Below are positions 5,121 through 51,170 of a stretch of 64,000 bases of DNA, in pieces (the first letter of the stretch is position 1; each line of letters starts with the position of its first letter). Both the position numbers and the translations under genes were made by a program. The stretch spans positions 34,933,501 through 34,997,500 of the forward strand of contig NC_134145.1 of the NCBI RefSeq assembly GCF_033958435.1, written 5' to 3'. The stretch is from Carettochelys insculpta (taxonomy: Eukaryota > Chordata > Testudines > Carettochelyidae). The notes below the pieces were generated by a model. It was not told the DNA's origin. It made no database searches and saw only the letters and a list, made by a program, of their open reading frames with translations.

Positions 5121-5398
5121 TAATTCAGTGCTACAAAATAGGATGAAGCAGAGTGGTGAGAAAGAATAATGGTATGATGCTCACTGTGTCTCCCTGTTTT
5201 TGTAATTCCCTTCAGGGGGGACTCTCATGCAGCAGTAAAGCTATCCCTGATAGTCCTTTCCACTGAAATGGCAATTTGTACCTCTTTACACCACTATTTA
5301 CACTCAGAGCTGTAGGAAATTTTCACCTTTACACAATGCTTATGTATAGAAAGAGGGAAGCCCTGAAGATGGAGGGAGAAGACATAAACTCAGAGCAC

Positions 5399-5548
5399 TC
5401 TATCAAAACAAAAAGCAGTCAAGTAGCACTGTGTGGGACAGACCCACGAAAGCTCACCTAATGAACCATTTTGCTAGTCTTTAAAGTGCTACTTGACTGC
5501 TTTTTGTTTTGATAGTGTATAGACTAGCACGGCTTCCTCTTTGTTACT
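5399..5548. mobile_element. Short palindromic Penelope-like insertion (subfamily 1)
   Basis: An 11-bp direct duplication ACTCAGAGCAC (5388-5398 and 5549-5559) bounds the insert. The right part (about 5440-5548, plus) is the PLE subfamily 1 3' end: CCCACGAAAGCTCACC, then TGACTGCTTTTTGTTTTGAT, then a terminal TTGTTACT. The left part (5399-5432) is an inverted copy of the same end, starting at ATCAAAACAAAAAGCAGTC and lacking the last about 40 nt. The turn-around falls at the short stem GTGGG/CCCAC. Confidence 0.85.
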
Positions 5549-6160
5549 ACTCAGAGCACCCTGTGCGAAATGCTGACTGACCCTCTGCAGGGGGTGAATA
5601 AGAACTAAGCACCATTTAAATCATGCTTTGAGCACTACAGTAGTGAATAGATGGTGCACTGACCCTCAGCAGAGGCATGAATTTCACCACTTTTGAATGG
5701 CTTCTGCCTGAGAGCTAGAGGCTGCTTCCCCACAGCCCCCCCGTTTGAGGAGCACAAGTGAGACTTGCTCTTTCCTTCTGCCTCAAGTCTGAACATGCTC
5801 TTTTCGTGATGCCAGTGCAGCATTCAGATACGGAGAAATCATAAGACAATGGCCTGTCTGATCCACTGATCCTGTTTTTAACTTATCAAATCTTCAAAAG
5901 TTATCATTCCAGCTCAGAGCAAAAGGCTGGGGTAGTCTTTTTTTCAAAGCCCAGATTTTGTACCGACTGAAAGCAGGACACCTTCCCATTACTCCCATTG
6001 AAGGCAAATGAAAGTTTTACCAGTGGCACAATCAGAAAGTTTGTCCTAAGCGGGGAAATCACTCAGTGAATCAGAGTTTTAAGCAGTGGACTAAACATCA
6101 CTTCCACTCTCTGGTAATCAGGCTTTAGCGCCACGCTGTTTGCGATGGCATCATACTCCT

Positions 6161-6271
6161 GTAGTACCCAGAGGCGCTGAGACCTCATCTGGGGTGAGCG
6201 AAGTCTCTGCTCTACAGCCGAGCAGAGACTTCGCTCACCCCAGATGAGGTCTCAGCGCCTCTGGGTACTAC
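6161..6271. repeat. Perfect 52-bp inverted repeat (palindrome) with 7-nt loop
   Basis: Arms 6161-6212 and 6220-6271 are exact reverse complements over 52 bases around the loop TACAGCC. The unit is flanked on both sides by ACTCCT (6155-6160 and 6272-6277), which looks like a 6-bp target duplication. Arms begin GTAGTACCCAGAGGCGC. No other copy was noticed in this window. It could be a small fold-back transposon, a hairpin RNA source or an assembly fold-back. Confidence 0.9.
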
Positions 6272-6294
6272 ACTCCTATTAGCCCGCCAGTCAC

Positions 6295-6990
6295 CCACAG
6301 AAACTTTCGGCGCGCGGGGGGGAGGGGCCGAGGCTAAATCTCAATTTCTAGCCTGAAAAACGAGCGGAATTTAAAAAAAAAAAAAAAAAGGGTTTGTTCA
6401 CCTCAGAGCTGTAAAGCAACCGGGTAGGTCTGGTAATTATCACACGGAAGCCATGAGAAAAGAACAGGGGCCGGACGCACGGGGGACGTCGTTTGCAAGG
6501 TGGAATGACGCTCTGAAGGTCTCCAAGCCTTCCAGGGGGCGGCTCTTCGCTCTTTCCTCCCAGCTACACAGCAACGCGCAGCTCTTCCGGCAGCGCCCCG
6601 CCGTGCTCCCGACTTCCCCTCGACCCGCGACTTTCTCTCCGACACGGAGTTTCCTGATTTTTCTAGAGCTCGGGGCGGGCGGGGGAGCGGGGGAGAGGAG
6701 AACGCTGCGGGGTTCCACGGTGAACGGAGAGCGGTTGGGGGAGGGGCCGCAGCGGCTGGCAGTTAGTTCCCTTCTGCAGCAGGAGCGCCACTCGCTAGGG
6801 AAACTACTCAGCCCCCGTGGTGTCGCGTGGCGGTGGGGGGGGGGGGGGGTAGAACTCCCGCCGTCCCGTCTCAGCCGTGGAGCCCGCCCCTTGCCTTGGG
6901 TGAGTGACTCCGGCTGCCCCACGCCCCACCCCCGCCTCCACAGTCAGCACCAGGTGGGGAGCGGAGGCAGGTGAAGAGGTGCGTTTGCCA
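6295..6990. promoter_or_regulatory. CpG island with no gene recognised
   Basis: About 700 bp are strongly GC-rich with dense CpG (for example at 6308-6320, 6468-6490, 6570-6650 and 6820-6835). The surrounding DNA is AT-rich and CpG-poor. Such islands usually mark a promoter or first exon. A donor-like CAG/GTGAAG lies near 6970 on plus. The open frames on both strands (6453-6974 plus, 6440-6922 minus) have biased composition and no domain, so I make no protein call. A non-coding RNA promoter is possible. Confidence 0.6.
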
Positions 6991-7079
6991 GGCCTGGCCG
7001 CTGCCGTGTGGGAAGGGGCAGCCAATTAACCCAGTCAGTCTTCCTGGGGGTGGGGAGACGCAGCAGATTATAGGAAGGA

Positions 7080-7552
7080 TGTGGATACACTGGAGAGGGT
7101 CTAGCCGAGGGTGACCAAAATAGTTAGGGGTCTGGAGCATATGACCTATGAAGAAAGGTTGAGGGAATTGGGACTGTTTAGTCTGCAGAAGAGAAGAGTG
7201 AGGGGGGACTTGATAACAGCCTTCAACTTACTGAAGGGAGGCTGCAAAGAGGCTGGAGAAGGGCTGTTCACAGTGGCCACGGCTGGCAGAACACAGAACA
7301 ATGGTCTCAAGTTGCGGTTGGGAAGGTCCAGGTTGAACATTAGGAAAAACTTTTTCACTAGGAGGATGGTGAAGCATTGGAATGGTCTACCCAGGGAAGT
7401 AGTGGAGTCTCCATCCCTGGAGGTGTTTAAGTCTCGCCTGGACAAAGCCCTGCTGGGCCTGATCTGATGGGTTTGGTCCTGCTTAGAGCAGGGGGCTGGA
7501 CTCGATGGCTTTTTAGGTCTCTTCCAGCTCTATTGTTCTATGATTCTATGAT
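7080..7552 (+). mobile_element. CR1 LINE 3' fragment, plus
   Basis: 7111-7467 is an open frame for the CR1 ORF2 C-terminal region ([37 protein letters not shown]). It is followed by the 3' UTR with GGACTCGATGG and a terminal repeat of ATTCTATG type (7530-7552). It begins about 90 bp after the CpG island. It is 5'-truncated and carries only the end of ORF2. Confidence 0.95.
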
Positions 7553-8327
7553 TAATTCAGCCAGGGGGTAGGTAAGGGGAAGGACACACCAACTTGGGTG
7601 TGGGGCAAGTGGAAACAGAAGTCTAGTTTGAGGAGCAGAGCTTGTAGTTTGTGTGGGGGTGGAGGCTCCATTGGTAGAGGTAATATCTTGCCAGGTTACT
7701 GTAGATTTTAGCACCTCTCCCTCCAGGGGTATCTAGTTAAGGAGAGAACAGAGCTCCCCTGCCACTGGCCTTGGAGCCCAGGCGTAACTTCTCTAAGGCC
7801 TTATCAGAACTAGATTCCAACAGCAGGTGTAGCTTTACTACTGCAAACATGTCTGTGTAGATAGACAAATCCACTGATTGGCTCCTCTGGGTTTATCCTA
7901 CTTTGAAAGCTTGAGGGTAAATGCCACTGGGTGCAAAGAGCAGCTTTGCTCATTGCTACAAAAGGTTGTGTTGGTACAGTTTCTTCACAGGCTGTAATTG
8001 GAGCAAATCCTTAGGTAAAAACAACTATTTTCATTTTAACAAATTGCTGCATGTTTATGAAAATTTATTATTTTGCTGGAATGTCTTGGCAGATAATCTT
8101 AGTATAGGTAAGAAGGCACACAATAATGGTAGTAAAATTAGATGGAGACTTCTGAAACTGTCCCATTTTAATTTCTATTTCTCATTTTAATTTCTCCTGC
8201 CACCTTCTAATTTCAAGGAATAGAAAAGTTACTGTTTCAGTCCCTAGTTGTATCTTACTCTGTTCCAGCACACTCACTGTCTACTGCTGATATTTTACTA
8301 TTCTAGTAACATCTGGCATCTTACTCT
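7553..8327. other. Intergenic stretch, no feature recognised
   Basis: AT-rich single-copy-looking sequence between a CR1 tail and a palindromic PLE. The open frame at 7921-8190 (plus) has no recognisable domain. Confidence 0.4.
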
Positions 8328-8622
8328 TGAACATATCAAAACAAAAAGCAGTCAAGTAGCACTTTAAAGACTAGCAAAATAGTTTATTAGGTGAGCTTTT
8401 GTGGGACAGACCCACTTCTTCAGACCATAGCCAGACCCGAACAGACTCAATATTTAAGACACAGAGAACCAAAAACAGTAAGCAAGGAGGACAAATCAGA
8501 AAAAGATAATCAAGGTGAGCAAATCAGAGAGTGGAGGGGTGGTGGGGGGAAGGTCAAGAATTAGATTGAGCCAAGTATGCAGACGAGCCCCTATAGTGAC
8601 TCAGAAAGTTCCCATCACGATT

Positions 8623-8940
8623 TTAACCATGTGTTAATGTGCCGAATTTGAATATAAAAGTCAGCTCTTCCACTTCTCTTTCCAAAACCGTGCGATAATT
8701 CCTCGTCAGTAACACACATACCTTTAGGTCATTGACAGAATGCCCCATTCCATTAAAATGTTGACTAACTGGTTTGTGGATCTGGAGTGTTTTGATGTCT
8801 GTTTTGTGCCCGTTGACCCTTTGTCTAAGGGAGTTAGAAGTCTGTCCAGTATACAAAGCATCTGGGCATTGTTGGCACATGATGGCATATATGATGTTAG
8901 TAGAGGAGCATGAGAAAGTGATCCACGGGCACTTTCTCAT
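8623..8940 (-). pseudogene. PLE GIY-YIG endonuclease fragment, left arm
   Basis: About 100 residues of the Penelope endonuclease are readable. They include a partner of the GIY motif ([15 protein letters not shown]), a YTG in place of YIG, the conserved LRQR-x-NGHK helix with the catalytic-type Arg, and the distal Glu region (EVEELTFIFKFGTLTHG). The frame starts in the arm and lacks the RT and linker, so it cannot make a functional element protein. Confidence 0.9.
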
Positions 8941-8969
8941 GCTCCTCTACTAACATCATATATGCCATC

Positions 8970-9296
8970 ATGTGCCAACAATGCCCAGATGCTTTGTATA
9001 TTAGACAGACTTCTAACTCCCTTAGACAAAGGGTCAACGGGCACAAAACAGACGTCAAAACACTCCAGATCCACAAACCAGTTAGTCAACATTTTAATGG
9101 AATGGGGCATTCTGTCAATGACCTAAAGGTATGTGTGTTACTGACGAGGAATTATTGCACCGTTTTGGAAAGAGAAGTGGAGGAGCTGACTTTTATATTC
9201 AAATTCGGCACATTAACACATGGTTTAAATCGTGATGGGAACTTTCTGAGTCACTATAGGGGCTCGTCTGCATACTTGGCTCAACCTAATTCTTGA
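8970..9296 (+). pseudogene. PLE GIY-YIG endonuclease fragment, right arm
   Basis: This is the mirror copy of the left-arm frame: MCQQCPDALY, then YIR in place of YIG, then LRQRVNGHK, EVEELTFIFKF and a C-terminus ending in LAQPNS. Both arms thus carry different substitutions in the YIG motif. There is no RT domain in either arm. Confidence 0.9.
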
Positions 9297-9974
9297 CCTT
9301 CCCCACCACCCCTCCACTCTCTGATTTGCTCACCTTGATTATCTTTTTCTGATTTGTCCTTCTTGCTTACTGTTTTTGGTTCTCTGTGTCTTAAATATTG
9401 AGTCTGTTCGGGTCTGGCTATGGTCTGAAGAAGTGGGTCTGTCCCATGAAAGCTCACCTAATAAACTATTTTGCTAGTCTTTAAAGTACTACTTGACTGC
9501 TTTTTGTTTTGATAGTGTATAGACTAGCACAGCTTACTGTCTGTTACTGTTCTATGAACATAGTTTATGTTTGGCTTCTTGCTCTCACTGATATCTTCTC
9601 TTTGTACTAAATGTTATCTCTCTTTTTATAATAAACATCTGATTTTATTGTATGTTTTTTGTCTCTTCCTTTCATCTTCATATAACTTTGCTGCTTTCTT
9701 TTTGTATTTCTAACTTACGTTTCTGGCCATCAGCTATTGGTCCAATAAGAGTTTACCTCAGCCATCTTGTCTCTCTGATTTGCTGGGTCTGACAGAGCTA
9801 CCACTGTAATGGAGGGGTCAGCATACTCTTTACGTAAGGCCCCACTTCTCATCCCTGCAATAAGCAGGCCTCCCCCAACCTGTTTAACGTAATACAGAAC
9901 TATGGAACTTTCAGTTATGTTTATATGAAAAAAAAAAAACCAAAACCCTTTCCGTATATGCAAGGAAATATACA

Positions 9975-10280: not shown

Positions 10281-10299
10281 TGGCTGCAACATTTTTAAT

Positions 10300-11030
10300 C
10301 AGATGGATGAAACTGAAACCCAACAGCCAATTGTACTGTGGCCCCTCCCTTATGAAATTTCACAGACCCCTGAAGAGGCCTGCCCCCCATTTTGCACACA
10401 CCTGTTATAATTCATATTAAATATATTCAGTTGTGTAATATTATGCATCAGCTGTAGATGGTGCCATAACCAAAATATTGTTACTATTATTTTATTGGGT
10501 CTGAACATTTTATGTCAGTGGCTACATCTAAACTAATTATACCTAAATCTATACAAAAGATCAATAAGTAACTGAATCTTCCACTGTCTTTTTCTCCAGA
10601 AGAATTGGAAAATTCCAATGCCAAACTTTGAGATTCTCCTTATTAATTTTAAACTAACAGATGAGCAATAAATAATTTTTATGTATGCTGGATCCCATAT
10701 TCTTTGTGCCTCCAACCTCAGTGATAGGTTTTGTGTGTCCAGTGAATTGAAGACCTGGATGAAGATAAGAGACACAAAAAACTGGACAAGGGTAGATCTT
10801 AAATTCTAATAGTATGTATCATCTACTAGTAAAATAGAGACCATGTCTTTCATAGTCCAGTGTAATGTACACCTTTCTTGAGAATGTGACCTTTGCTTCT
10901 CAGTAGATTTCCAGGTTGCTTCTCATTTATTGTGCTAATTGTTTCCATAGTGTGAAGCAGCTTGTATTTCTCTACTACATCTCCCTTTTGTCTGAAATAT
11001 CAAAATAATTATTTTATACAACTGTGTTAT
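10300..11030. other. Intergenic, one hAT-like right end then nothing recognised
   Basis: 10330-10412 resembles the right end of the hAT family seen at 6-890 (CAGACCCCTGAAGAGGCC then CCCCCCATTTTGCACACAC). The remainder is AT-rich without a recognisable gene. Confidence 0.35.
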
Positions 11031-11033
11031 CTG

Positions 11034-11744: not shown

Positions 11745-11747
11745 CTG

Positions 11748-28195: not shown

Positions 28196-28245
28196 GACTT
28201 CTTGTTGTTCTTGAAGATACAGACTAACACAGCTACCTCTCTAAT
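28196..28245 (+). mobile_element. Penelope-like 3' terminus (subfamily 2), plus
   Basis: CTTCTTGTTGTTCTTGAAGA then ACAGACTAACACAGCTACC is the extreme end of PLE subfamily 2. This is the same 35-45 nt that is missing from the truncated arms of the palindromic copies. Confidence 0.7.
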
Positions 28246-30213: not shown

Positions 30214-33200
30214 CTGTTTGGGGGAGAGAGGTGGGAGAGAAAAAAAAGCAAGCAAAGAATTAATAGCTCATCAATACATATTGTTTTATATATAGTGATC
30301 ATAACTAACATGTTTCAATCTTACAAAGGTATTGAATCTCTCTCATGAGGTGGCAAGACCATTTAGGACTCCATCAAGCCAGTCCCTTCCTATGTGACAC
30401 TCAGTTTTGTACATCTTAACAGAACTTATTCTAGGGTTTTAAACTGCCAAAACCAAAATAAAGCAAGCAGTCCTGTAGCACCTTAAAGACTAACAATTTT
30501 ATTTATTATGTAAGGGGCTTTTGTGGGTAAGACCCACTTCCTCAGATTAGGACAGAGCTCATATTTTGACTTGAAAATTCTGTCTTGTTGAAATGTTTTA
30601 TTTTTGGATTTTGGGTGGATGTACAGCTCTTAAATGCAGGGTCTTTCCTACTCTCTCATGCCATTTCTGTATTTCTGTTAAGGCTGGACTGACTGGTTCA
30701 CAGGTCACTTACATATGCTATAATCAAGGGCATAATGGAAAAAAAAAAGTCTTCTTCCCTGTGCCAGTCCTTCATTGATTTCTTAATTATTTGATAAAGA
30801 CATATATTTGCATGATTGGACACATATTTAATGTACATCATTTGGGGAAAACATCTTTAAAAGGGTTGTTGATTAATCAGTTAATGTGATTAACAAAAAA
30901 TGATTAAGAATTAATTACGATTAATCACAGTGCTAAACAATACCAACTGAAATGTATTCAATAATGTAGATCTTTTTCTACTGTTTCAATAAAATGTACA
31001 GTGTTCACCTTCTATTTAATTACATAAGTGTAGTCTCTTTACTGTGAAAGGGTAATTCATGAAATAGACTTTAGTTACACAACCACTCGAAAACAAAGTA
31101 AAACTTTAGCTCCTACAAGTCTGCTAAGTCCTATTTCTTTTTCTGCCTATCATTAAGACAAACGAGTTTGTTAACAGTAATGGGAGCTACTGCTGCCTGC
31201 TTTTTATTTATAATGTCACCAGAAAGTAAGAATAGGTGTTCAAGTGGCACTTTAGATGGAGTTGCAAGGTATTTACTGCTGAATATCGCAAACATTTGTA
31301 TGCCCCTTCTTGCTTTAGCCACCATGCCAGAGGACATACTTCCATGCTTGTGATACTCAAAAAAAATTAAAAAAAAAAATTAAAACTGTTACTGAACTCC
31401 TTGAGGGTGAACTGTATGCCTCCTGCTCTGTTTTACCTGCATTCTGCCATATGCTTCATGTTATAGGAGTCTTGGATGATGACCCAGCACATTTGTTTTA
31501 AGAATGATTTCACAGCAGATTTGTCAAAACACAAAAGGCCAAATGGGCAATTTCTAACAATGGCAACAGTATTCCACCAGGGTTTAACAATTGGAAGTGC
31601 CATCTGAAATCTAAGAGGGCTGAGATGTGGCATATGCTTTCAGAAGTCTTAAAAGAGCAAGAGTCTAATGTGGAAACTACAGAACCTGAGTCACCAAAAA
31701 AAAAAAAAAAAGTTATGCTGGTGGCATCTGATTGAGATGATAAAAATGAACATGCACCCGTCCACACTGGTTTGGATCATGATCCAGCAGAACCCATCAT
31801 CAGCATAGATGCATGTTCTCTGAAATGGTGGCTGAAGCATACGCATCTGGCAAGTAAATATTTTACAATGGCAGCTACAACAGTGCTATGTTCTCACTTT
31901 CAGGTGACATTATCAACAAGATGCAGGCAGTATTATCTTCTGTAAATTGTAACCAAACTTGCTTAACAAGAAGTTAGGACTGAGTGGGCTTACCAGCGCT
32001 AAAGTTTTATATGGTTTTATAATTCTAAGTTCAACTTTTGTGGTAAAGACTTTGCATTACAGTACTTGTATGAGACTAATTAAAAATGATCTTTACAGTG
32101 CAAATATTTTCCATTAAAATGTAAAGTATACACTTAGACTTTTTATTCTGTGGAGTAATTAAATCAATGTATTGGAAAATGTAGAAAACATCCAAAAAGA
32201 TTTAAAATAATGGGATTTCCATTATTGCTTAACAGTGTGATTGATTGCAATTACTTTTTTAATTGCTTGACAGCCCTGATCTTTAAGGTTATGGGTGCTA
32301 CAACTTGAAGGACAATAAACTTTAAATGATCACTGGCACTAGAGAAAATGGCGAGAGCACAACAAAAAAAAACAAACAGGAGGTCGCCTCAGTCATGTGT
32401 GCACCACTCCTTAGTGATTTTAAGTCTTACATAGTTTGTTGTCATGCATATCTAAAGGCTCCATCATGCAAACACTCACAATTGGGCCATTAGTTGGGAA
32501 ACTTTCATTATAAGAAAAATAGCATTTGTCAAAGGGAGGAAAAGGGAAGGAGGAAATAGATCCAATGAAGGTCTACAATAAATTCAGAAGCTTGGTGAAA
32601 AGTTGTCAGTGCAGGCCCACTAAAGAGGAAGAACATCTTTAAGTGAATAGGTAATGGTAGATGGTGGACAAAGGTGGAATGTTCAGAAGCACTGAATGTT
32701 AGCCTAACTTGCTCTTACTAGAGCTTGTTGGCAATTTTGTTATATGGTAGAAACCTCACTGATGATTACCTCATCAAGAGTTCTTCTTTTGGGTTTTCCA
32801 CATGGGAGAGGAAATGGAGCCCTAAGTAATTTAAACAGGACGCTATTTCTTTGGGAATTAATGAAACTTATATACCTCAGTGCTTTATACAGAGAATTAA
32901 AAAAAAAAATTGTTGGGATGCAAGAGACAGCAAGACAAATAGTCTATTTACTTGTTTCACCAGGTACATACCATCCAAAATCTCTCTGTGATGATTGGTA
33001 CATTTCATCATGCTTTTTTGATCTTCGTGGTTCTCCATGCGAGACAGAACAGTTGCCCGTACCTCAAAGCAGTAGTTCTTTCCTTTGTCAATTCTTATTT
33101 CAAAACGATTACTTTTTGTTGTTGCCTCTTTCTATGTATAAAGGAAACAATGACACTTTCTTCAGGAAGACATTTTTTGTAAAAGTTTTAGATCTTAATA

Positions 33201-36200
33201 GCAGAAGGTTTGTAACTATAGAAAATGCAAAATTACAGGTATAGGAAGTTGAAAATAAGAATTTACCTTTCCTGTACTTCCATCTTTCCAATAATAGAGT
33301 GTATATTCCAAGTCATTTTCAAAGATATCTCTGATACTTTTAAAGGTCTTATTGGGAAATACATAAGGTGTAAGTGGATCTTCAATGGCCACTTTCAGCG
33401 TGGAGTCAGTTTGTTCAAAAGTTTGAATCTTTGGTCTTCCGATTGTAGCTAACACACATACAAAAACAGTTTTTAGAATTAATTCCAGGCTTAGGAAGAA
33501 AATTATTGGTAGTATCTTCTTCACACATCATTCCCCACTTCCACCTTTAAAAACAAAACAAAACAACCCACCTCACCCACAGACAAACCAAGCCAAAAGT
33601 CCCCTAAACATATTCTACTTTTGCCAGGTTTAAACACGGTGCTGGTGTCACACAGTGACCGGCACAGTCTATGCCTAGTAATAACATTTCAACCCAGTGC
33701 ACGGCATTCACACAAAGTTCTAGGCACCACTTAAATCCTATGTTAAGGATAAGTGGTGCAAATCAATGGAGTGAGATTTCAGGGATAGCTAGAAGATGGT
33801 CAAGCGCCACAATGACAAGAATAAGAACCTAAAAATACCTCTATGCTCAATCCAAAACCCATTGAATCAGTGGTGGTGACACAAAAAAGTGACGTGATAT
33901 AAACAGACTATTACCAGGCAATCCTACTTACTCTGATTGTACGGTGTGAATTTTGGGGAGATTGCATAAGGTGGCTCTTCAAAGTTGTCTGTTCTTGTAA
34001 GCATTTCAGACACTATATGTGCAGTATAGGTGTCTTTTACGTTCTTCATTTTGTCACTAACATCACACTCTGTTTCTTTTGTGTAGATGCACACTTTTTC
34101 CCAGTTTGAGTTGATACTGAAAGGAACCAAAAATGAAATATTGATAAAACACTTTCCAAAGTTTCATGCATATGCATATATGTTCAGGCATGTCTTCTAT
34201 AATGCCTAGGATATAATAGTTCTCAGTAACCATCAAAGTCCACAATTTTTACAATTTCTTCTAAATACATAATGCTTGTACCTGTATACCCTAGTCTGTG
34301 AAATTGAGGAGACTAAACCATACCAGGCAAACGTGCTAAATTCAAAGTTTGAAAAATTGAATTAAGCAACTAACATTTAACTCTGAGGCTGGGTCTACAT
34401 GTTCCCCTTCCTTTTGAAAGGGGCATGTTAATGAGCAGGTTCGAAAGATGCTAATGAGGTGCTGCAATGAATATGCAACGCCTCATTAGCCTAATGGCAG
34501 CTGCGGCAATTCGAAAGTGCAGCTTTTGGAGTCGCTCGCCACCCGTGGAGACAGGACCTTCCGAAAGGACCCCCCCTGGTTTTTGAAAGCCCTTCTTCCT
34601 ATCTGGTGATCGGAAGAAGGGCTTTCGAAAACTGGGGGGGGTGTCCTTTAGGAAGGTCCCATCTGCAAAAATGTCAAGCTTCTATGGATGTCTAAATGGC
34701 AAAGAGAAGGGTGCAGTTCATTTATTTTTTCATAAATTAAAACAAGCATATTTTTATTAAAAAATATTTGCAAACAGGGAGAAAACATCCCTCTTTGCTT
34801 CTTAATTATATCAAAAGGAGCAAAAAAAATAAGCTTGTGTGTTTCGTTTACTATTTAAAAACAGAAAATATCAAATGTGGTCTCCTTTATTTTTGCTGGA
34901 GAATCAGAAATAAGTATCAGGGCTTCCATGTAGTTGAGTTGAAATGACAGAAGTGCATGTGTGTTCGTCATAATTTTTAGTTAAATTGGAGTTTGTTCAA
35001 ATTTAAGTTTCTTGCGATGTTGCAATTCCATTGCTTTCCGAGTGGTTTATAGAGTCCTTGAGAAGAGACAGGGAAGATATTTTATCTTCAGAAACAGGAA
35101 AAATAGCCAATCCATGTTTCAGGGCTTTTTAAATCCACAGTAAGGAATCAAAAAAGGACATATACTTTTAAAGTTAGGTTATCTTTAAAGAGGACATACT
35201 AGCCACCCTCTGGCCTCTGCCCACCAAAAACCACCTTTCCTGTGCACGCAATTATTCTTAGCACAAACAATTTGGCCATATCTACACTAGCCCCAAACTT
35301 CGAAATGGCCACGTAAATGGCCATTTCGAAGTTTACTAATGAAGCGCTGAAGTACATATTCAGCACCTCGTTAGCATGTGGGTGGCTGCGGCACTTCGAA
35401 ATTGACGCAGCTCGCCACTGCGCGGCTCGTCCCGACGGGGCTCCTTTTCGAAAGGATCCCGCCTACTTCAAAGTCCCCTTATTCCCATCTGCTCACAGGA
35501 ATAAGGGGACTTCAAAATTGATGCGGCTCGCTGCCGCGTGGCTCGTCCCAACGGGGCCCCTTTTCGAAAGGACCCCGCCTACTTCGAAGTGCCACGGCTG
35601 CCCGCATGCTAATGAGGCGCTGAATATGTATTTCAGTGTTTCATTAGTAAACTTCTAAATGGCCATTTACATGGCCATTTCGAAGTTTGGGGCTAGTGTA
35701 GACATAGCCTTTTTTTTAAAAAATCTTTGGAGTGTTAATTTATGTACGTAATTTGTAAAAATTAGGCTCCAAGGTTTGAAAATACAAAATGCTTGTGCTA
35801 AGAAGAGTAATGTATTTATTAGCACAGCTGCGGAAATCTACAAATACTTATATTTACAAATCCCATCATACAGCTATCTCTACAGTTTAGAAACTAAACT
35901 ACAGCCCACACACTTGACATATATTCTTTGAAAGTAATGTTTATTTAAAATTTCTTTGTGTAGTAGGTCTTTCAAAGCTTCCATCCTTTTAGAAGTTTTA
36001 GCTTTCTGGTGAATCATTAATTGAAATTAAGTATTTTAAGGACTCTTCTGCTTGTGAACCTACATTCAAGAAAATTTAAGAGACTTGTTCTTGAATTAGG
36101 ACCAAATCCTGCTTGCCTTACTCGCACAAATGATCAGATTAATAATCATATCGATTCTGTTAAATTACATACAAAGAGAATTTGTTCCTATAAGATCCAA

Positions 36201-39200
36201 ATAAAATTAAAAAGGACAAAAGTTAGGTACCTAAAGATAAAAATAGAAATCTATTGGGGTTCCATAATGTCTGGCTCTTGCATTGCAAGTTAAATGAGCA
36301 GACTGCTGTACTTATATGGAGTACCACTAAGATAGATGGTGTGGTTGCAGCAGTGAATGTGTCTGGATTGAAGTGCAGGATTGGGACCTTTGTCCATTTG
36401 TGTTGGTAGGTTTGGGCCCTTGTGTTGCATTATGCCAGTAGTATTCAACCTCTTCCGTTTGTGGACAGTGTTCCCTGTAAGTAGAGGGAATGGGCGGCCA
36501 CCCAGGAGAGATTCAGTTGTCGCCCAGCTGATTAGCAGAGTGCCCACAGTGGGCATCATGTATTTTTACAGGTGGTGCACATATGCACGTCAGTGCATAT
36601 AACATTTATTCTGCACATGGACAGAAAAATTAGAGGGAATACTCTTTGGGGACTCTTAAAAATTTCAAATGGAGGTATGTGCACCTACTTTAGAAATCTT
36701 AACAGTCTGTGACCCTCAGTTTGAAAAAATCACTGCACTATTACGTCCTTTTGCTTAAACAGTTGGCTTTATTAAATTTTAAAATGCTGTATAAGGAACA
36801 TGACAGAGTACATTTAACCTCTCACCCAGTGCTCACAGAGAAAAATCATCACAGAAGAGTTATGGCATATTTCACCCTTTACTCATGAAGGTTAGCCTCC
36901 AGTTGTAGACACTGGCACATGCCAGAAACTGTTACAATACAATGCTTTCCAGAAGTCTAGTGTGCAGACAGTTAATAATGTAGTCTCTTTCAGGCATGTT
37001 CAGTCATTGCCTTCATAATTCATAGACTGTGTGCACAGTAAAGGTTTCATATTCATCAACAGAATATTGTAATTAAAATAAAATTAGGTACTCAAGATGT
37101 GCTTGTTTCCTATTAGTCCAGTGTTTTTAAGAACTCTAACATTAATTCTGTGAACCATGAATTGAGGAAAATCCATGCAATTAGATGGAGAGATTATTTT
37201 AAGGTTATTCAGCAAGTCTAAATAACACTGATCCACTTTACTAATGCATTAATCATTAAATTAGAATAAAATTAATCATATCTATGTCTGCAGTTGCTTT
37301 CTCAACATTAAAAAGAGGGAACTGTTTTGGCAGATTGAAAACTGATTTTTTTTAATGTAGAGGGTCACATTCTACCTAGTCTTTGTGAAGGGGTTGTAAA
37401 TGGGTACAAAGATTTTCCAGTATCATGTGACCTGTACTGAAACCCCAGAGTCACGTCTAGATCCACACATTTTACTTCTAGAATGTGCTGAATCAGACCC
37501 CAGAAAAAGGTACACCTGCATCTGGAAGCAATCAGAACTCAAAGTAGAGACCACAACTTTCTCATAAGCATTGATTTGGATTCTGTGCATTATATTCAAG
37601 ACATGCAAACATTCTGCCATGACTATACTGTTTTCTGCCTCAATCTCAAATGTCTTTTTATTATTGCCATTCATTACAATCCAGTGAGCATGGACAGAAG
37701 GGCATGGGTACATCGGAAACTCATACTTACAATCATATTAAACTTACCCAGATATTGCTACTGTATAGACATAGTTGGTTGGCTTGGGTTGCCACTGCAA
37801 TATTGTTTTGAAGTTGATTGATGACCAAGTTATATTAACTGCTGTTGGCAGCTCTGAATTACCTTTAAAGACAAAAAGAAAGAAAAATGTGATGAACTCC
37901 CAACAGCGTGACTCCAGATTTATTGCAACGAAAAGTCTTGTGGCACCTTATAGACTAACAAATATTTTGGAGCAGAAGCCTTCATGGGCAAAGACCCACT
38001 TCATCAGGTGCATGAGTGGGGGGTATTTAAAAGAATGGGATCCCAGTAAATGGGAGGGCCAGAGCTAACAAGGTCTATTCAGCAAGGTGGAAATGGCCCA
38101 TTATCAATAATACGTATCAAAAGAGGAAAAAACAAGTCAGATCACACAGGGGAACATGAGCCATTGTCAGAGTCTAATGGGGAGATATTAACACGTAGGG
38201 CAGAGAAGCTGTTTTTGTAAGCTGCGAGCCACTCCCAGTCTCTGTTTAATCCTTGATTAATGGAGTCAAATTTGCACATAAACTGCAGCTCAGAGATTTC
38301 TCTCTCCATTTGATTTTTGAAATTTCTTAGTTTCAGGCTGCTACTGAGTGTCCAGGGAGATTGAAGTGTTCCCCCACAGGCTTCTGTACATTACCGTTCC
38401 TGATGTCTGATTTATGTCCATTTATTCTTTTATGGAGAGACAGTCCAGTGTGGCCAATGTAAATTGCAGTGGGGCATTGCTGGCACATGATGGCATATAC
38501 TATATTAGTAGATGTGCAGGTAAAGGAGCCCTGATGGTATGGTTGATGTTAGGTCCTGTGACGATGTCACTGGTGTAGATAAGTGAGCAGCATTGGCAGC
38601 GAGGACCATTGCATGGACTGGCTCCAGGCCTAGAGCCACCTAGAGCCACTCCAAATTTGGCTCCATTAACCAAGGATTAAACAGAGACTGGGAGCGGCTT
38701 GCAGCTTACAAAAACAGCTTCTCTGCCCTGAGTGTTAATATCTTCCCATTAGACTCTGACAATGGCTCATATCTCTGTCTGATCTGACTTGTTTTTTCCT
38801 CTTTTGATAATGGGCCATTTCCACCTTGCTAAATAGACCTTGTCCGCTCTGGCCCTCCCTTTTAGCGGGACCCCATTCTTTAAATACCCCTCTGAAACCA
38901 CCCCCCTCACTCATGCATCTGGTGAAGCGGGTCTTTGCCCACGAAAGCTTATGCTCCAAAATATCTGTTCGTCTATAAGGTACCACAAGACTGCTTCTTG
39001 TTCTTGAAGCTACAGGCTAACACGGCTACCTTTCTGATACATTTATTGCATTCCCTATTTAGCAGATGTGAGATTTTTTTATGCATATACAGTATAGTGG
39101 TTTGTGGGGGGGGGGGGGGGAAAAATCACAGAAATCTTACTCATTTTTTTTTTTTTTTTACTCCTGTATGTGGGAAGACAGTTCCTCTCCTCCCACTTAG

Positions 39201-40996
39201 TGATCTAAAACTTATGTAATTTAGCATAGTTGTTTCCTCTTGCCCCCAAATCATATGGGCAGAAAGACTACTGGATACATCTAGGAACAGTTCAAAATTT
39301 TGCTTGCTCGTAGTGTTTCTGCTGTTTAAGCAAACACAAATGTTTTATAATGAGTTTGAAAAGACTTGAAGGGTATGTAATATTTTGCATTCTATCTGAC
39401 ATTCATATATCATATACAGTATAGCTAAAATCCATATAACTATAGTGTAGAATCCAGTAACAGTTTCCTGATCCTTATTCAGATAAATTCTTAACTGTAG
39501 TAATTATATATCTTATTGACTTTTTTTTTTTTTTAAAGCAAACTCAGGCAAACTGCACACCAAAATAAATGCATAATTTCATCTATAAAAAGTGGTTAGT
39601 CAGTAAATTAAATAATTATGTTTATGTAAGCATGTTTGTATTGTTCTATACATAAATAAAAATTAGTAGATAAAAGTGCACATTTTACTGTTTAGTATTA
39701 AATTTCAACCATTTCCAATCACAAATTGGACTAGAAGTATGTGAAAAACATACAGTAGCCAAAGCGGGGGGGGGGTAGTGCATTAAGAAGTCATACACTC
39801 CACAATAAAATGGAAATAGTAGTTTCTTTATTTTTATAATTTATTTCCTTGTATGAATAATCACACTCTATGACTATCACCCACTTGATATGCTTTAAAA
39901 AAAATAGAGCCAAAAATGAGAAGTATCAAAATTGGAGGTATTGAAAAGAGATGCCAAATAATACCAGTAAGATGTTGGTCTGTAACCAGTACATAATAAT
40001 TAATAAATTTATTACCTGTCTTTTCTTCTCTTTGAACCATTTAAAATATATTAACATCACCCTCTAATGTTCTTATAAACAACCCTAAAGCTGAATTTTA
40101 ATTTTGAAATTAAAACTGTACTAAAGGGAGAAAAATATGGGGCACTTCCTGGAAAGGGGACTGTGCAAACCCTAGTGCTCTCCTGGGCTCCACTGGGATC
40201 AGTACAGATTTCAGCAGAGCCTTGTTAAGTTCACTGGTGTTTCATGAAGCTACGGGATCCATTTGTGGCATCTGCTGCCAAACCCACAGCTCCTATGTCC
40301 CATAGAACAGGCCGGCTGAGGTCACATGGGAGTTCTGACACACCAGTCGGATGCATCTGATGCAGTGGGTCTTTGCCCATAGACGCTTGTGCTCCAAACT
40401 ATCTGTTCGTCTATAAGGTGCCACAGGACTCCTTGTTTTTGCAGATACAGACTAACAGGGCCTCTGAGGTTTGGCACATTTGTGCACTTCTGGCCCCCTC
40501 CAGCTGCAGAAGAACTGTGTGTGGTTTATGGCCATTGAACTTGCCAGGTGCAAAAGCCAAGCCAGGCAGGGCCTCCGGAGTCCACGTGCAGGGCACACTG
40601 CGCAGCCACGTTCTTGGCTGTGGGGTCTGACCCTGGAAATCTCTCTGGCCGCATCCCCAGGCTCATGCCGGACGCTATCCTCCAGTCTTCACAGCCACAG
40701 CAGCCCCAGGGAAGCATTGGTGTGTCCCACCCGTCTCGGCACCCCGTCCCCCTGTGGCCGGCAGCCCCCCCGCACTTCAGGCTGGCCCGGGACAGGCAGG
40801 CTGGGCTGTGGAAGCGGCTTACGCACCGCTGGGCATGGGGCGCTGTCCACCGCCGGGCGCGGCACAAGCTGGTGGCTCTGGGCAGGCAGCCGGAGCAGCG
40901 ACACTCACCTGTGCAGTAGCCCAGCTGGGAGAGCAGCGCGCCCCAGAGCAGCGCCCGGCTCCAGGCTGCGGCTAAGGCGTCCAAGGCGCTCGCCAT
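30068..40996 (-). CDS. F3: Tissue factor (coagulation factor III), six coding exons
   Basis: Join of 40909-40996, 37748-37862, 33932-34116, 33267-33448, 32972-33131 and 30068-30213; 876 nt, 291 aa plus TAA. Tissue factor is the cell-surface receptor and cofactor of factor VIIa that starts coagulation. Visible: signal peptide (about 1-28), two fibronectin-III-like domains (about 30-130 and 131-245) with Cys pairs 77/85 and 211/234, one membrane helix (about 246-271) and a basic tail with Cys272 and Cys274. The contact residues human Lys20, Trp45, Asp58, Phe140 and the Lys165-Lys166 pair align to conserved residues; human Lys15 is Ser and Arg135 is Phe here. Sequons lie at Asn39, Asn128 and Asn162; human Asn124 glycosylation is absent. 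The mature length of 263 aa equals human. No frameshift or stop is seen. Human comparisons are from memory. Confidence 0.97.
30455..30550 (-). mobile_element. Penelope-like 3' end in F3 intron 5
   Basis: Minus strand: GAAGTGGGTCTTACCCACAA, then GTTAGTCTTTAAGGTGCTAC and AGGACTGCTTGC. This is a degraded subfamily 2 tail, in the same orientation as F3. Confidence 0.75.
30861..32278. mobile_element. Fold-back hAT transposon in F3 intron 5
   Basis: TIRs (AGGGTTGTTGATTAATC at left, CAGGGCTGTCAAGCAATTAA inverted at right) are flanked by an exact 8-bp duplication ATCTTTAA (30853-30860, 32279-32286). The outer several hundred bp of each side are related in inverted orientation. Both contain the C-terminal transposase region and its AT-rich 3' tail, minus on the left and plus on the right. 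The middle includes an A run near 31696. It cannot be autonomous. Confidence 0.8.
31131..31337 (-). pseudogene. hAT transposase C-terminal dimerisation domain remnant
   Basis: The minus frame gives [20 protein letters not shown], then [20 protein letters not shown] and VCLND. This is the hATC pattern (tyrosine-leucine-ala core, LFS-x-GDIxNKKRxxLxP-x-xxxKLxxLN). It is the left arm of the fold-back element. A degraded mirror copy lies at about 31840-31970 on plus. Confidence 0.8.
32972..33131 (-). CDS. F3: F3 coding exon 5
   Basis: Acceptor TTTATACATAG, donor GATG/GTATGT; phase 0 to phase 1. It encodes [20 protein letters not shown], then CFEVRATV and the second disulfide partner in SMMKCTNHH. 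The acceptor AAAGAG was chosen over a downstream AG because it restores Lys-Lys across the junction and the length typical of the family. Confidence 0.95.
33267..33448 (-). CDS. F3: F3 coding exon 4
   Basis: Acceptor GTGTTAG, donor GGAAAG/GTAAAT; phase 1 to phase 0. It encodes the first part of FNIII domain 2: [32 protein letters not shown] and [13 protein letters not shown]. The final Lys190 corresponds to human Lys165, and its partner is the first codon of exon 5. Confidence 0.96.
33932..34116 (-). CDS. F3: F3 coding exon 3
   Basis: Acceptor CCTTTCAG, donor CAGA/GTAAGT; phase 2 to phase 1. It encodes [20 protein letters not shown] (first disulfide, Asp58 equivalent) and ends with SPKFTPYNQ. 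Relative to human it is three residues shorter in the loop before the [11 protein letters not shown] block. The last base joins exon 4 to complete an Asn-Gln-Thr sequon. Confidence 0.96.
34387..34660. mobile_element. TIR element of the TCTACAC family, truncated, F3 intron 2
   Basis: The left end GGCTGGGTCTACATG leads into GCTAATGAGGTGCTG, CCTCATTAGCCTAATGG and CGAAAGTGCAGCTTTTGG. The right half 34555-34655 folds back on itself (TTTGAAAGCCCTTCTTCC against GGAAGAAGGGCTTTCGAAA). The outer right TIR is missing. Confidence 0.7.
35274..35709. mobile_element. TIR element of the TCTACAC family, 436 bp, F3 intron 2
   Basis: Long outer inverted repeat GGCCATATCTACACTAGCC against GGCTATGTCTACACTAGCC, continuing through CCCAAACTTCGAAATGGCC. 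It is flanked by TTT on both sides (35271-35273, 35710-35712). Inside are further inverted (AAGTCCCCTTATTCC) and direct (CTTTTCGAAAGGA) repeats. It has no coding potential. Confidence 0.85.
36466..36644. mobile_element. Short hAT-type TIR element (GTTCCCT family), F3 intron 2
   Basis: Ends CAGTGTTCCCT and, inverted, GAGTATTCCCT. The flanking 8-mers TTTGTGGA and TTTGGGGA match at 7 of 8. Internal blocks GGCGGCCACCCAGGAGAGA and CAGCTGATTAGCAGAGTGCC recur at 54100-54200 and 49100-49226. Confidence 0.8.
37748..37862 (-). CDS. F3: F3 coding exon 2
   Basis: The acceptor TTTAAAG precedes GTAATTCAG, and the donor is TCTGG/GTAAGT; phase 1 to phase 2. It encodes the first strands of FNIII domain 1, including AVNITW (N-glycosylation sequon), [12 protein letters not shown] and YVYTVAIS, which match the tissue factor signature. 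A palindromic PLE begins 55 nt upstream of this splice acceptor. Confidence 0.96.
37928..39040. mobile_element. Head-to-head palindromic Penelope-like element, F3 intron 1
   Basis: Direct duplication ATTTATTGCA (37918-37927, 39041-39050). The left arm (37928 to about 38635) is minus-oriented and holds the GIY-YIG endonuclease region ([18 protein letters not shown], then [13 protein letters not shown]) and the 3' UTR; it starts at ACGAAAAGTCTTGTGGCACC. The right arm (about 38645-39040) is a plus copy of the 3' UTR with the complete terminus. The central region is not symmetric: only the left arm keeps the endonuclease. Confidence 0.9.
39051..40344. other. F3 intron 1 remainder, AT-rich
   Basis: A poly-G run (39106-39120) and poly-T runs (39147-39159, 39523-39534) are present. 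No repeat family or alternative exon was recognised. Confidence 0.4.
40345..40465 (+). mobile_element. Penelope-like 3' end (subfamily 2), F3 intron 1
   Basis: GATGCATCTGATGCAGTGGG, then TCTTTGCCC, CTATAAGGTGCCACAGGACT and ACAGACTAACAGGGCCTCTG. It is plus-oriented, complete at the terminus, with no inverted partner seen on its left. Confidence 0.75.
40909..40996 (-). CDS. F3: F3 coding exon 1 (signal peptide)
   Basis: It encodes aa 1-29 plus one base (phase 1): MASALDAL to LSQLGYCT, with hydrophobic core ALLWGALL. The start at 40996 is chosen because it lies about 50 nt below a TATA box and has G at -3 and G at +4. An in-frame ATG at 41125 lies upstream of the TATA box and would not be transcribed. 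The donor is CAG/GTGAGT. Confidence 0.93.
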
Positions 40997-45165: not shown

Positions 45166-45166
45166 G

Positions 45167-45850: not shown

Positions 45851-45855
45851 CATGG

Positions 45856-46971: not shown

Positions 46972-47247
46972 CATGGTCATTCCATAGTAACAGAGAGATA
47001 GCCGTGCTGGTCTATATACTGTCAAAACAAAAAAGCAGTCCAATAGCACTTTAAAAACTAACAAAGTAATTTATTAGATGATGAGCTTTTGTGGGACAGA
47101 CCCACTTCTTCAGGTCGTAGCCATACCAGAACAGACTCAATATTTAAGGCACAGAGAACCCAAAATAGTAATCAAGGTTGACAAATCACAAAAATTATCA
47201 TCAAGGTGAGCAAATCAGAGAGCAGAGGGTCAGAAAGTGGGGGGCAG

Positions 47248-47766
47248 TCAAGAATTAGGTAAAGCCAAGTATGTAAAAGAGCCCCTATAATGAGCTAGAA
47301 AATTGCCATCCCGGTTCAAACCATGTGTTACTGTGTCAAATTTGAATATAAAAGAGAGTTCAGCAGCCTCTCTTTCCAAATGGCTGTGAAAGTTTCTTTT
47401 CAGTAAAACACAGACTTTCAGGTCATTAACAGAATGGCCCACTCCATTAAAGTGCTGGCTGATGGGTTTGTGAATCAGGAGTGTTTTTATGTCTGTTTTA
47501 TGCCCATTAATTCTTTGTCTAAGAGAGTTTGAAGTCTGTCCAATATACAAAGCATGTGGGCATTGTTGGCACATGATGGCATATATGATGTTAGTTGAGG
47601 AACATGAGAATGTGCCCGTGATTCTGTGAATAACCTGGTTAGGTCCAGTTATGGTATCTCCAGAATAGATATGTGGACAAAGCTGGCAGCAGGTTTTGTT
47701 GCAAGGAAAAGTCCCAGGACTGGTGTTCCTGTGGTATAGACTGTGGCTGTTGGTGCGAATCCTCAT
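47248..47766 (-). pseudogene. PLE GIY-YIG endonuclease with upstream Cys motif
   Basis: 172 aa open frame: FPCNKTCCQLCPHIYSGD (Cys-rich linker), [20 protein letters not shown] (GIY-YIG region, YIG intact), LRQRINGHKTDIK, ISQHFNGVGHSVNDL and a C-terminal block with LEREAAELSFIFKF. It is the best preserved endonuclease domain in this window but is detached from an in-frame RT. Confidence 0.92.
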
Positions 47767-48170
47767 AAGGTTGGGAGGTTGTCTGTAGGAGAGAACAGGC
47801 CTGTCACCTAGGGCCTTCTGGAGTGTGGTATCCTGATTAAGGATAGGTTGCAGGTCTTTAATTATGCATTGCAGTGGTTTAAGTTTGGGGCTGCAGGTAA
47901 TGACCAGTGGTGTTCTGTTCTTGGCTCTTTTGGGCCTATCTTGGAGTAGCTGGTCTCTGGGTATTCATCTGGCCCTGCTGATTTGTTTTTTTACTTCTCC
48001 TGGTGGGTAATTCAGGTTTATGAATATTTGGTAGAGATCTTGTAGTTTTCGGTCTCTGTCAGTAGGATCAGAGCAAATGTGATTGTACCTACAGGGCTTG
48101 ACTGTAAACAATGGATCTAGTTGTGTGTGCAGGATGGTAGCTAGAAGAGTGTAGGTGAGTATAGCAATCA

Positions 48171-48600
48171 GTGGGAAATGTTCCTGACAACACCATCCTT
48201 GCCACCATGGATGTAGAGGCTCTGTACTCTAGTATTCCACATGAAGACGGATTACAAGTGATCAGGAATACCGTCCCTGATGTCACCACAGCCAATCTGA
48301 CCTCTGTAACGTTGTTCTCACCTACAATTATTTCCAATTTGTGGACAATTTATACCTCCAGATTAGTGGAACTGCTATGGGCACGCACATGGCCCCACAA
48401 AATGCTAATATATTTATGGCTGACGTGGAACAGCGATTCCTCATTGCTTGTCCCCTATTACTCCACCTTTACTTACGATACATCAATGACATCTTTATGA
48501 TTTGGACCCATGGTATAGAGACTCTAGAAGAATTCCACAGATACTTTAACAATCTGCACCCCACCATCAACTTATGTCTCGACTACTTCACATGAAAGAT
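48171..48600 (+). pseudogene. PLE reverse transcriptase core fragment
   Basis: In two overlapping frames: LATMDVEALYSSIPHEDGL (RT motif with catalytic-type Asp), then after a frameshift LQISGTAMGTHMAPQNANIF and YLRYINDIFMIWTHG. The usual YIDDIF reads YINDIF, so one catalytic Asp is lost. A stop occurs near 48594. It is a dead copy. Confidence 0.9.
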
Positions 48601-49099
48601 ACGTTACCTGGACACTACAGTAAAAATCAAGGACAGCCTGATCAGTACCACACTCTATCAGCAACCCACTGATTGCTATACTTACCTACACGCCTCTAGC
48701 TTCCATCCTGCACACATAACTAGATCCATGGTTTACAGTCAAGCCCTTAGGTACGTTTGCATTTGGTCCGATCCTACTGACAGAGACTGAAAACTACAAG
48801 ATCTTTACCAATTCTACAACAATTTTTTGTCTAAGAGAGTTTGAAGTCTGTCCAATATACAAAGCATGTTAGTCTTTAAAGTACTACTGGACTGCTTTTT
48901 TGTTTTGATGGTCATTCCGTAGGCATCTGGTCAATTTTCCAAAGGCAGTGCTAGCTTTGGATAATAAAGCAAATACATCATGACCCACATTTATGCTAGA
49001 GGACGGAACACTTCTGGTGTAGCAGAACTTGTCAACAGCCTTAAGGACTGTGCCAACAGTAGTGATGGCTGGGCTCTTTGCAAGCAGGATGAGACATAA

Positions 49100-49226
49100 C
49101 TTCTGTCTTTCTGAGGCTCACTGTAGGAGCTCTGCTAATCATTCTGGGAGCTGGGAGGCCTTTGAATCTCCCGTGTGGCCACCCAAGCACACATCTTACA
49201 GGGAACACATCTTACAGGGAACGCTG
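49100..49226. mobile_element. GTTCCCT-family hAT fragment
   Basis: GCTCTGCTAATCATTCTGGG, CTCCCGTGTGGCCACCCAAG and ATCTTACAGGGAACAC match one half of the element at 36466-36644. The end word CATCTTACAGGGAAC is doubled (49190-49222). Confidence 0.55.
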
Positions 49227-49439
49227 GTCAGCAGGACCCTCAGGGAACAGCCACTACAGGGGAAGCCCTCCTGGCAAACTGTCCTTAGCTATCCTTTCCC
49301 AGCACCCTGAGCTACCAGGTCTGCGTGTGCATTCCCTAGCTGCCTCCTGCCTACATCCTGAGCTATTCCACTTCCCATACACAGCTCTTAGATACCCCCT
49401 GCCTGCGCCTGAATGGTTTTCAGACTTTCTGAGCTGAGT

Positions 49440-49735
49440 CATCCCTCTGAGTTACATTTTTGATTGTGTTCCCCACCAACCCAGACAGGCTGAGTGGCCC
49501 ATTGAGGTGAATCTGGCAGTAGAGGTGGTTCTCCCTCCCTGTAATCCACTGTGCAGATCTGGCCTGAGCCCCACCCACCCTCGACCCTCCATAATCAAAG
49601 TTAAACCAAGCCTATGGGCTACAGCCATGGTCACACACCCTGCCCAAACCCTTCCCCCCTCTCGCCTCCACTGGGCTCTGAAGTTTTTATAGCACGTTGA
49701 GAAGAGCCTCAGTTGAGAACTCCTATTGTAAAGGC
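49440..49735. mobile_element. hAT-like element end
   Basis: The right edge AGTTGAGAACTCCTATTGT, inverted, resembles the left end at 44523. The interior has AACCAAGCCTATGGGCTACA-type words typical of this C-rich family. Left limit uncertain. Confidence 0.4.
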
Positions 49736-50394
49736 TCAAAGGGCAAATAAATAAAATCCCAAATATGTTTGTTTTTAAAAAGATAATTTTAAGCCTGTCT
49801 CTTAGATTTTGAATGACTAGGATTGGCAGTACTGTCAAGTATTAAATTCTATGAGATACATTCAGGCCCCAGTGAAGTCTATGGGAGTTTTACCATTGAT
49901 TTCAGTGGGGCTAGATTTCACCTTATACATGTAAGTATGGATGAAACACAGATAGTTCCCATAATGCACATCTGAGCTGCATACCCTGGGTCTGGACTAG
50001 GATGAACTTTTGCCCTCTTACATGCTCACACTGGAATGAAAACTATTTTGCACAGAAGGTGCATGCTAATCTGGTGCAGTCTCCTGTAGACATGCATTTC
50101 ATGTTGCATATTTCTGGGAGTCTCAACCATTTATCAGTATATAGGGCTTTTATTTGCCATTTTGAAATGCTTAAAAATAATTTTTGATCTATGGCCCAAT
50201 TCTGTGATTGCCCAAGTCCCTGCAAATCCTATTGATATCAGTGGGAGCAGGGGGAGTGGATGTTCAGAACCTCAAATCTATCTTCTTGCAAAGGCTTTGT
50301 GAAAGCTATTGATCAGATTGTAGAATTTTGAGGAAGTAATAATTGAAGTGGTAGTAAATTGCAGTTACCATATATGACATACTGATTGCAAAAG

Positions 50395-50584
50395 TAACAA
50401 GCAGTCCTGAAACACCTTAAAGACTAGCAAATTTGTTAGACCATGAGCTTTCATGAGGTGACAGTCTGAGGAAGTGGGTTATACACACGAAAGCTTATGA
50501 CCTAACAGATTTGTTAGTCTTCAAGGTGCTACAGGAGTGCTTCTTATTTGTGAAGCTACAGACTAACATGGCTACCTCTCTGAG
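50395..50584. mobile_element. Short palindromic Penelope-like insertion (subfamily 2 relative)
   Basis: The duplication ACTGATTGCAAAAG / ACTGATCTCAAAAG (50381-50394, 50585-50598) matches at 12 of 14. The left arm 50395-50455 is an inverted, terminally truncated 3' end (TAACAAGCAGTCCTG, TTAAAGACTAGCAAATTTG). The right arm is the plus 3' end with full terminus (GAAGCTACAGACTAACATGG). Confidence 0.85.
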
Positions 50585-51170
50585 ACTGATCTCAAAAGAT
50601 AATTCTAATGTCATGTAGAAAAAAAATCATTCAAGTGCTGTTTTACAAATATTTGTCTTATAACTCTCTTGGTCAGAAATCACAAAAAATGTGAAGTGAG
50701 ACATTTCATTGTGAATGTGAAGAAAAAATTAAAGTATTACTTCATGCTAATATGAGGACAAACTCCGCCTGTTATGGAGCAGTGAAGGGGAAATGCTATG
50801 GAGAAGAAAAGAAACAAGGACGCTTTGCCTCACTGCCCCATGCTCTATGTGAAATCAAGGCCCTGTACTCTGGGGCTGTTCCTTCCCTGCTTTGTTGGAG
50901 GGTGTGTTGCAACCCAAAGGAAGCAGAGCGGAGAGGAATGATGACAAGGCCACTATTTCAGTATCATGTTTTGGATCTAGTAAATTCTGGCTGTGGTATG
51001 GAATCCTAATCCCTTTTTGCTGTGGGAATATGACTCTTTTCTGAAAATCGTGAGCACAGAGTTTTCTCTTGAGTAGTTCTGAAAACTGTTCAGTTGGTAT
51101 TGGTGAGACAAAAAGCGCTCACATCATTAGAGACAGTATGATTGACTTTGAGGACTGTAGTCAACACCAG

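Follow-up and report, generated by a model that had tools for sequence, protein, structure and literature searches.

Inverted Penelope-like insertions with a single 3' tail in the pig-nosed turtle genome

What kind of integration leaves the same 3' terminal sequence at both ends of an insertion, in opposite orientations, with its last nucleotides present at only one of them? The question is raised by a 64,000-nucleotide stretch of the pig-nosed turtle Carettochelys insculpta genome (contig NC_134145.1, positions 34,933,501 to 34,997,500; hereafter the window), where an earlier note had described five such inserts. These are insertions of Penelope-like retrotransposons. We place at roughly three in four the probability that they were made by two target-primed complementary DNA (cDNA) strands, one per start site, joined at their 3' ends. 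The tail pattern is matched exactly at 10,455 places in the turtle genome, which is thus a natural record of this reaction.

Head-to-head inserts in the window

The window was searched with a profile built on seven complete Penelope 3' ends. Fourteen 3' ends exceed the inclusion threshold and are read as nine inserts, five inverted and four single-armed; the earlier list of five had lacked the single-armed copies. In all five inverted inserts, two Penelope-like 3' ends lie head to head and face outward, with a target duplication on either side. In each, one end is complete (tailed) and the opposite end, by hand reading of the alignment, lacks the last 33–42 nt. This bears out what the earlier note had said of the five: their coordinates, correct to within a few bases, the inverted copies of one 3' terminal sequence at both ends, and one copy short of its last 35–45 nt. 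It had also put the duplications at 8–15 bp, three of them exact. Duplications are present, but the exact ones number four (8, 10, 11 and 11 bp), the fifth being 14 bp long with two mismatches. Exact matches of at least 8 bp arose in 9 of 1500 random placements.

The tailless ends fall at nearly the same place. Three copies stop after GTTTTGA(TAG) and the remaining two stop about 8 nt sooner, a coincidence within each group that has p of about 2e-4 if breaks are uniform across 122 nt. Exactly one tail is present in five of five inserts (p at most 0.03 under independent choice by both ends).

Insert 5399–5548 lies between exact 11-bp duplications (5388–5398 and 5549–5559). Its tailless arm (5399–5445, minus strand) is internally deleted and terminates in a hammerhead-like stem II, and its tailed arm (5446–5548, plus strand) is a complete 3' end. 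Insert 8336–9554, between exact 8-bp duplications (8328–8335 and 9555–9562), has a tailless arm at 8336–8920 (minus) and a tailed arm at 8924–9554 (plus). Both contain the endonuclease region, and their inner ends are about 6 nt apart in position. Insert 50395–50584 has its tailless arm at 50395–50450 (minus), its tailed arm at 50456–50584 (plus) and the mismatched 14-bp duplications at 50381–50394 and 50585–50598, whose longest exact run is 6.

Insert 37928–39040, between exact 10-bp duplications (37918–37927 and 39041–39050), has a tailless arm at 37928–38637 (minus) and a tailed arm at 38652–39040 (plus). The stretch 38275–38637, an endonuclease region whose match to Pfam GIY-YIG is above the cut-off, is absent from the tailed arm. 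Insert 46988–48907 carries its tailed arm on the left (46984–48179, minus), running from the endonuclease to the C-terminal part of the reverse transcriptase. Its duplications (46973–46983 and 48908–48918) are 11 bp exact, or 15 with one mismatch. The inner part of its tailless arm (48180–48820, plus) covers the reverse-transcriptase region, of which 48180–48664 has no counterpart in the tailed arm, and the tailless 3' end follows at 48867–48907 (plus). Inside this right arm lies a 49-nt antisense patch (48821–48869, minus), a direct repeat of 47509–47557 that is identical to the left, tailed arm at 48 positions (98%). We infer that the patch arose by a template switch onto the cDNA of the neighbouring arm. 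Template switching, which the earlier note had offered as a possible fixed step, is seen in this one case, as an addition.

One tail per insertion

The window is where the pattern was first noticed, so a genome sample serves as the independent test. The window lies on contig C9 of the 2.18-Gb host genome, and the sampled loci come from close to the beginning of contig C1. Genome-wide, a second pattern, placed upstream of the two end points, has 15,531 matches. Seventy-eight loci were read, 28 chosen by the tail pattern and 50 by the upstream pattern (50 fetched of 100 listed places). Sampling covered one end of a single chromosome and, for the most part, one subfamily; subfamily A, to which inserts like 8336 belong, lay outside the genome-wide sampling.

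Penelope 3' ends in the sample fall bimodally into two classes. With a profile score of at least 30, and with duplicates kept and 28 loci tail-selected, 62 of the 167 ends in the 78 loci and the window lie at profile positions 79–96 and 87 at 113–120, with 10 between and 8 lower. Removal of 13 duplicate pairs left 45 distinct head-to-head pairs, five of them from the window as paired by the script. Inserts 5399, whose right arm was joined to a neighbour, and 8336, whose left arm was over-extended, are not counted as themselves. A duplication was sought up to 10 nt outside and up to 6 nt inside the profile edge. It was called strong when exact over at least 8 bp (null, 0.6% of 2000) or when at least 11 bp long with one mismatch (null, 0 of 1000). 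Duplications span 7 to 13 bp exact and up to 16 bp with one mismatch. The tailless end is a genuine end, because an undetected tail would shift the duplication 30–40 nt away. Set by the duplications, tailless ends lie at 76–92 and tailed ends at 117–127, with a median offset of 40 nt (28–74) in 19 insertions.

These 19 distinct pairs with strong duplications comprise 16 tailed with tailless, two tailed with shorter, one tailless with shorter and no two-tailed pair. Exactly one tail is therefore present in 18 of 19, or in 16 of 17 with the window excluded. By origin, the counts are 7/8 for upstream-pattern anchors, 4/4 for neighbours of anchors, 5/5 for tail-pattern anchors, where at least one tail is guaranteed by selection, and 2/2 for the window. 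Among the 12 genome pairs neither chosen by tail nor in the window, 11 have one tail (binomial p = 0.003 against 0.5, the maximum one-tail chance if the ends are independent). For the five tail-chosen pairs on their own, the chance is 0.13. Moving the duplication threshold to 7 bp admits the two-tailed L024 and gives 18/20, and moving it to 9 bp gives 14/15. The result stays of the same kind when window inserts 5399, 8336 and 50395 are included from hand reading, since all three are one-tailed. The upstream pattern marks 43 distinct anchors, and 21 of these sit in inverted pairs, as 10 tailed ends, 10 tailless ends and one other.

Bimodal ends and a single tail in 16 of 17 strong insertions outside the window support a fixed step in integration, as the earlier note had supposed, over random rearrangement. 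Such a step matches the published biochemistry of a lizard Penelope-like element, which has two adjacent internal start sites and extension of both target strands (PMC11167929). Of the 43 anchors, 22 lack an inverted partner within the flank read, so copies are often, but not always, inverted.

Eight tail-selected loci on contig C1, at about 5.99–6.32 Mb (L016–L023), resemble copies of one repeated unit. One inverted-pair layout is common to L017, L018, L020, L022 and L023, and the same lone tail end is found in L016, L019 and L021. At another locus (L056), a 12-bp repeat surrounds a stretch of about 1.5 kb with its Penelope ends pointing the same way, a possible direct rather than inverted insertion.

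Arm lengths and competing routes

The relative lengths of the two arms bear on how they were made. Of the 12 decidable pairs that have strong duplications, 8 have a tailless arm that runs deeper into the insert than the tailed one. Two of those eight, and two of the four opposite cases, differ by just 3–4 nt; where the difference is at least 10 nt, the tailless arm is longer in six of eight pairs and the tailed arm in two. Insert 46988, one of these two, was scored as tailed-longer by the script, which its internal patch misled, and is tailless-longer by hand reading. The excess of the tailless arm is about 360 nt in insert 37928 and about 485 nt in insert 46988. Because the longer arm lacks the tail and the shorter one bears it, neither is a simple copy of the other. 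The non-nested arms, at least in 37928 and 46988, therefore require that each arm was primed separately, unless the tailed arm later lost its inner part by deletion.

The centres of inverted pairs vary, and a number of them coincide with palindromes or short overlaps. Such centres would fit annealing of two cDNA 3' ends. Two loci, L055 and L058, neither with a strong duplication, have an identical centre, in which profile positions 1 and 37 are joined at ATGCATCTG, and bear their tails on opposite arms.

An unlikely competitor is self-priming. The end of the first arm would snap back, or an antisense RNA would prime itself, and be copied into the second arm, with a masked stretch leaving the tail uncopied; one arm would then duplicate a portion of the other. 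This route was suggested for rotifer Penelope because of palindromic centres (PMC3846280). It agrees with inserts 8336 and 50395, where the tailed arm is longer, and with the longer tailed arm in 10 of the 21 decidable tailed and tailless pairs of any duplication quality. Against it stand the non-nested arms, with the tailless arm further inward in the other 11 of these 21 and in the eight strong pairs above. In insert 5399, hand reading shows a central loop whose orientation matches the tailless arm, and the tailless stop lies at a fixed element position, as expected of a start site. We reject self-priming as the sole route on the non-nested arms, unless later deletions in the tailed arm explain all of them. 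Priming from the first end, which the earlier note had raised, is not supported as the general route for the same reason.

Less probable still is that the inverted unit is a foldback element, or one like a miniature inverted-repeat transposable element, that moves whole. Inverted ends with target duplications do resemble a DNA transposon, many copies are just 130–250 bp long, and a TGCA-palindrome centre is common to some copies, and L055 and L058 have an identical centre. However, the 19 strong pairs show 16 distinct combinations of inner starts (positions 1–2 being merely the profile edge), the duplications vary in length, the ends are asymmetric, the tail changes arms between L055 and L058, and the longer copies enclose reverse-transcriptase and GIY-YIG pieces. 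The varied inner starts, variable duplications, asymmetric ends and coding pieces lead us to reject it for the copies sampled.

Inverted repeats are unstable and a recognised assembly hazard, which is the general case for random post-insertion rearrangement or assembly palindromes. This explanation is scarcely credible: the end positions are fixed, duplications lie at the outer edges of the inserts where the null is 0.6%, the two arms diverge in the three long window inserts (97%, 83% and about 90% identity), and HiFi reads underlie one published C. insculpta assembly, possibly not the one analysed (PMC10960847).

Two target-primed cDNAs, one per start site, best account for the two end classes, the duplications, the near-constant single tail, the varied centres and the mostly non-nested arms observed here. 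The element endonuclease would cut both target strands with a stagger, which would give the target duplication. Each freed 3' end would then prime reverse transcription within the element RNA. On one strand, synthesis would start at a distal site and leave a tailed, complete end; on the other it would start about 40 nt upstream and leave a tailless end. The two antisense cDNAs would run inward for unequal lengths and join at their 3' ends, with the element 3' ends facing outward. The two start sites, and cleavage and extension of both strands, are taken from in vitro work on Anolis. We infer that a single event uses one start site on each strand, and that short palindromes or microhomologies anneal to join the two cDNA ends.

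Several observations weigh against this reading. A strong duplication is present in just 19 of the 45 distinct pairs. The 26 pairs without one comprise 13 tailed with tailless, seven tailed with intermediate, two tailless with intermediate, one tailless with tailless and three two-tailed, one of the last being a mis-pairing in the window. Both ends are tailed at locus L006, which lacks a duplication, and at L024, where the duplication is AT-rich and 7 bp long; L046 is a strong pair without a tail (ends near 55 and 85). By script, the tailed arm is longer in 4 of the 12 decidable pairs. The 22 of 43 upstream-pattern anchors without an inverted partner lack one within 0.8–1.5 kb of flank; some partners may lie beyond it, and a one-sided duplication search on these anchors was weak, its null reaching 10 bp in 4%. 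Finally, the Anolis study saw start-site use without a strand difference, so a rule of one site per strand is not predicted (PMC11167929).

A shorter 3' end at 50–55, at or just after ATCTG, occurs in three insertions (L015, L046 and L075) and is a possible third reverse-transcription start. We tentatively consider, as a rather doubtful extension, that the start sites form an obligatory pair. A dimer on one RNA would prime one strand per site, giving exactly one tail per two-sided insertion, and the register would be shifted in these three insertions by a third, less frequent start some 30 nt upstream of the tailless one, at or just after ATCTG. Together, the one-tail rule and the non-nested arms discriminate two-sided target priming from self-priming and predict that start-site choice is linked.

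Single-armed copies, coding remnants and known systems

The four single-armed copies in the window, near 4939, 28194, 30454 and 40351, comprise three tailed (one diverged) and one tailless. The tailed copy at 4920–5037 (minus) has a 9-bp exact duplication (4911–4919 and 5032–5040). The copy at 28196–28245 (plus), hardly more than a tail, has a 10-bp duplication with one mismatch. No convincing duplication was found for the tailless copy at 30444–30547 (minus) or for the copy with the diverged tail at 40351–40464 (plus). Single-armed insertions with duplications thus exist, as in the first two and possibly, against a weaker null, at L067 and L077. No full-length element was seen in the window.

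Pieces of a GIY-YIG endonuclease are present in the window inserts, together with a weakly scoring reverse transcriptase (E 0.048) in 46988. The GIY-YIG match scores 25.2 bits in the 37928 copy (cut-off 22.6) and 22.0, just below, in the 46988 copy; in the 8336 copy no match to the domain was found. Among 40 related proteins, the best are from turtles, with a few from lizards and a crinoid. Six turtle relatives were scanned, and P0001 (22.6) and P0005 (29.1) reach the GIY-YIG cut-off. P0001, which is 62% identical, has GIY-YIG at 292–341 and, at 2–62, an RVT_1 match of 21.5 bits that falls short of the 29.6 cut-off. In P0022 and P0035, RVT_1 passes its cut-off and GIY-YIG was not seen.

A hammerhead core-like pattern (up to three mismatches) occurs four times, against none in 100 shuffles, and no hammerhead family is among the Rfam matches up to E 1. 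A 9-bp stem, TGYTAGTCT/AGACTARCA, around the tailless start pairs in 57 of 61 cells, a figure reached by 154 of 500 shuffles, and its covariation is not significant. The folds of four single sequences are no more stable than those of their shuffles (z 0.5 to -1.3). Pattern scans of viral and genome contig collections found no copies beyond this genome, and plasmids had none. When viral contigs were scanned for related proteins, 88 pattern stretches came up and none was confirmed as a relative, and a sequence search of solved structures gave no match.

Elsewhere in the window, a 53-bp inverted repeat whose arms match perfectly across a 7-nt spacer (6160–6272) resembles an Rfam microRNA model below the cut-off. 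A short hairpin (34553–34659, with 35-nt arms at 34569–34642) has weak microRNA-model matches, and a longer hairpin with 134-nt arms lies at 35274–35709. The stretch 59832–60056 matches residues 27–101 of turtle protein P0002 at 79% amino-acid identity, apparently outside the Penelope part of that protein, and is apparently another repeat or a host exon.

Among known systems, LINE-1 twin priming offers a parallel, in which the second target strand primes a second cDNA and yields an inverted insert with target duplications. That second cDNA begins at a variable internal place. In the turtle insertions, by contrast, the second cDNA has a fixed start near the 3' end, and the same terminal sequence is found at both ends. 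The architecture of inverted pseudo-long terminal repeats (pseudo-LTRs) with a tail is already published and is not new; a curation guide mentions inverted pseudo-LTRs and short 3' extensions (PMC8969392). A one-tail-per-insertion count, or an analysis of this architecture in turtles, was not found in searches of openly licensed papers. In description, the one-sided tail resembles the optional 30–40 bp tail of Drosophila virilis Penelope, as cited in PMC11167929.

Published Penelope elements of the rotifer Adineta vaga have inverted, head-to-head pseudo-LTRs with a tail optionally on one copy, target duplications of 8–10 bp in the described cases, a 31-bp tail, a 5' inverted copy 37 bp shorter, and palindromes at the inverted junction (PMC3846280). 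The turtle inserts are likewise inverted, target-duplicated, tailed on one side and, in several cases, palindromic at their junctions. Unlike the rotifer copies, many of those sampled here are short, and the single tail is near-constant where the rotifer tail is 'optional'. This near-obligatory rule exceeds the published option in strength, and the turtle arm lengths speak against the self-priming proposed for the rotifer. For Poseidon PAc, an element of Anolis carolinensis, the RNA interval between two adjacent internal reverse-transcription start sites corresponds to the tail, and the protein, with GIY-YIG and reverse transcriptase, cuts and extends both target strands; a hammerhead motif is also reported (PMC11167929). 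The turtle insertions, compared here by description, pair both start sites, whereas Poseidon PAc in vitro uses them without a strand difference.

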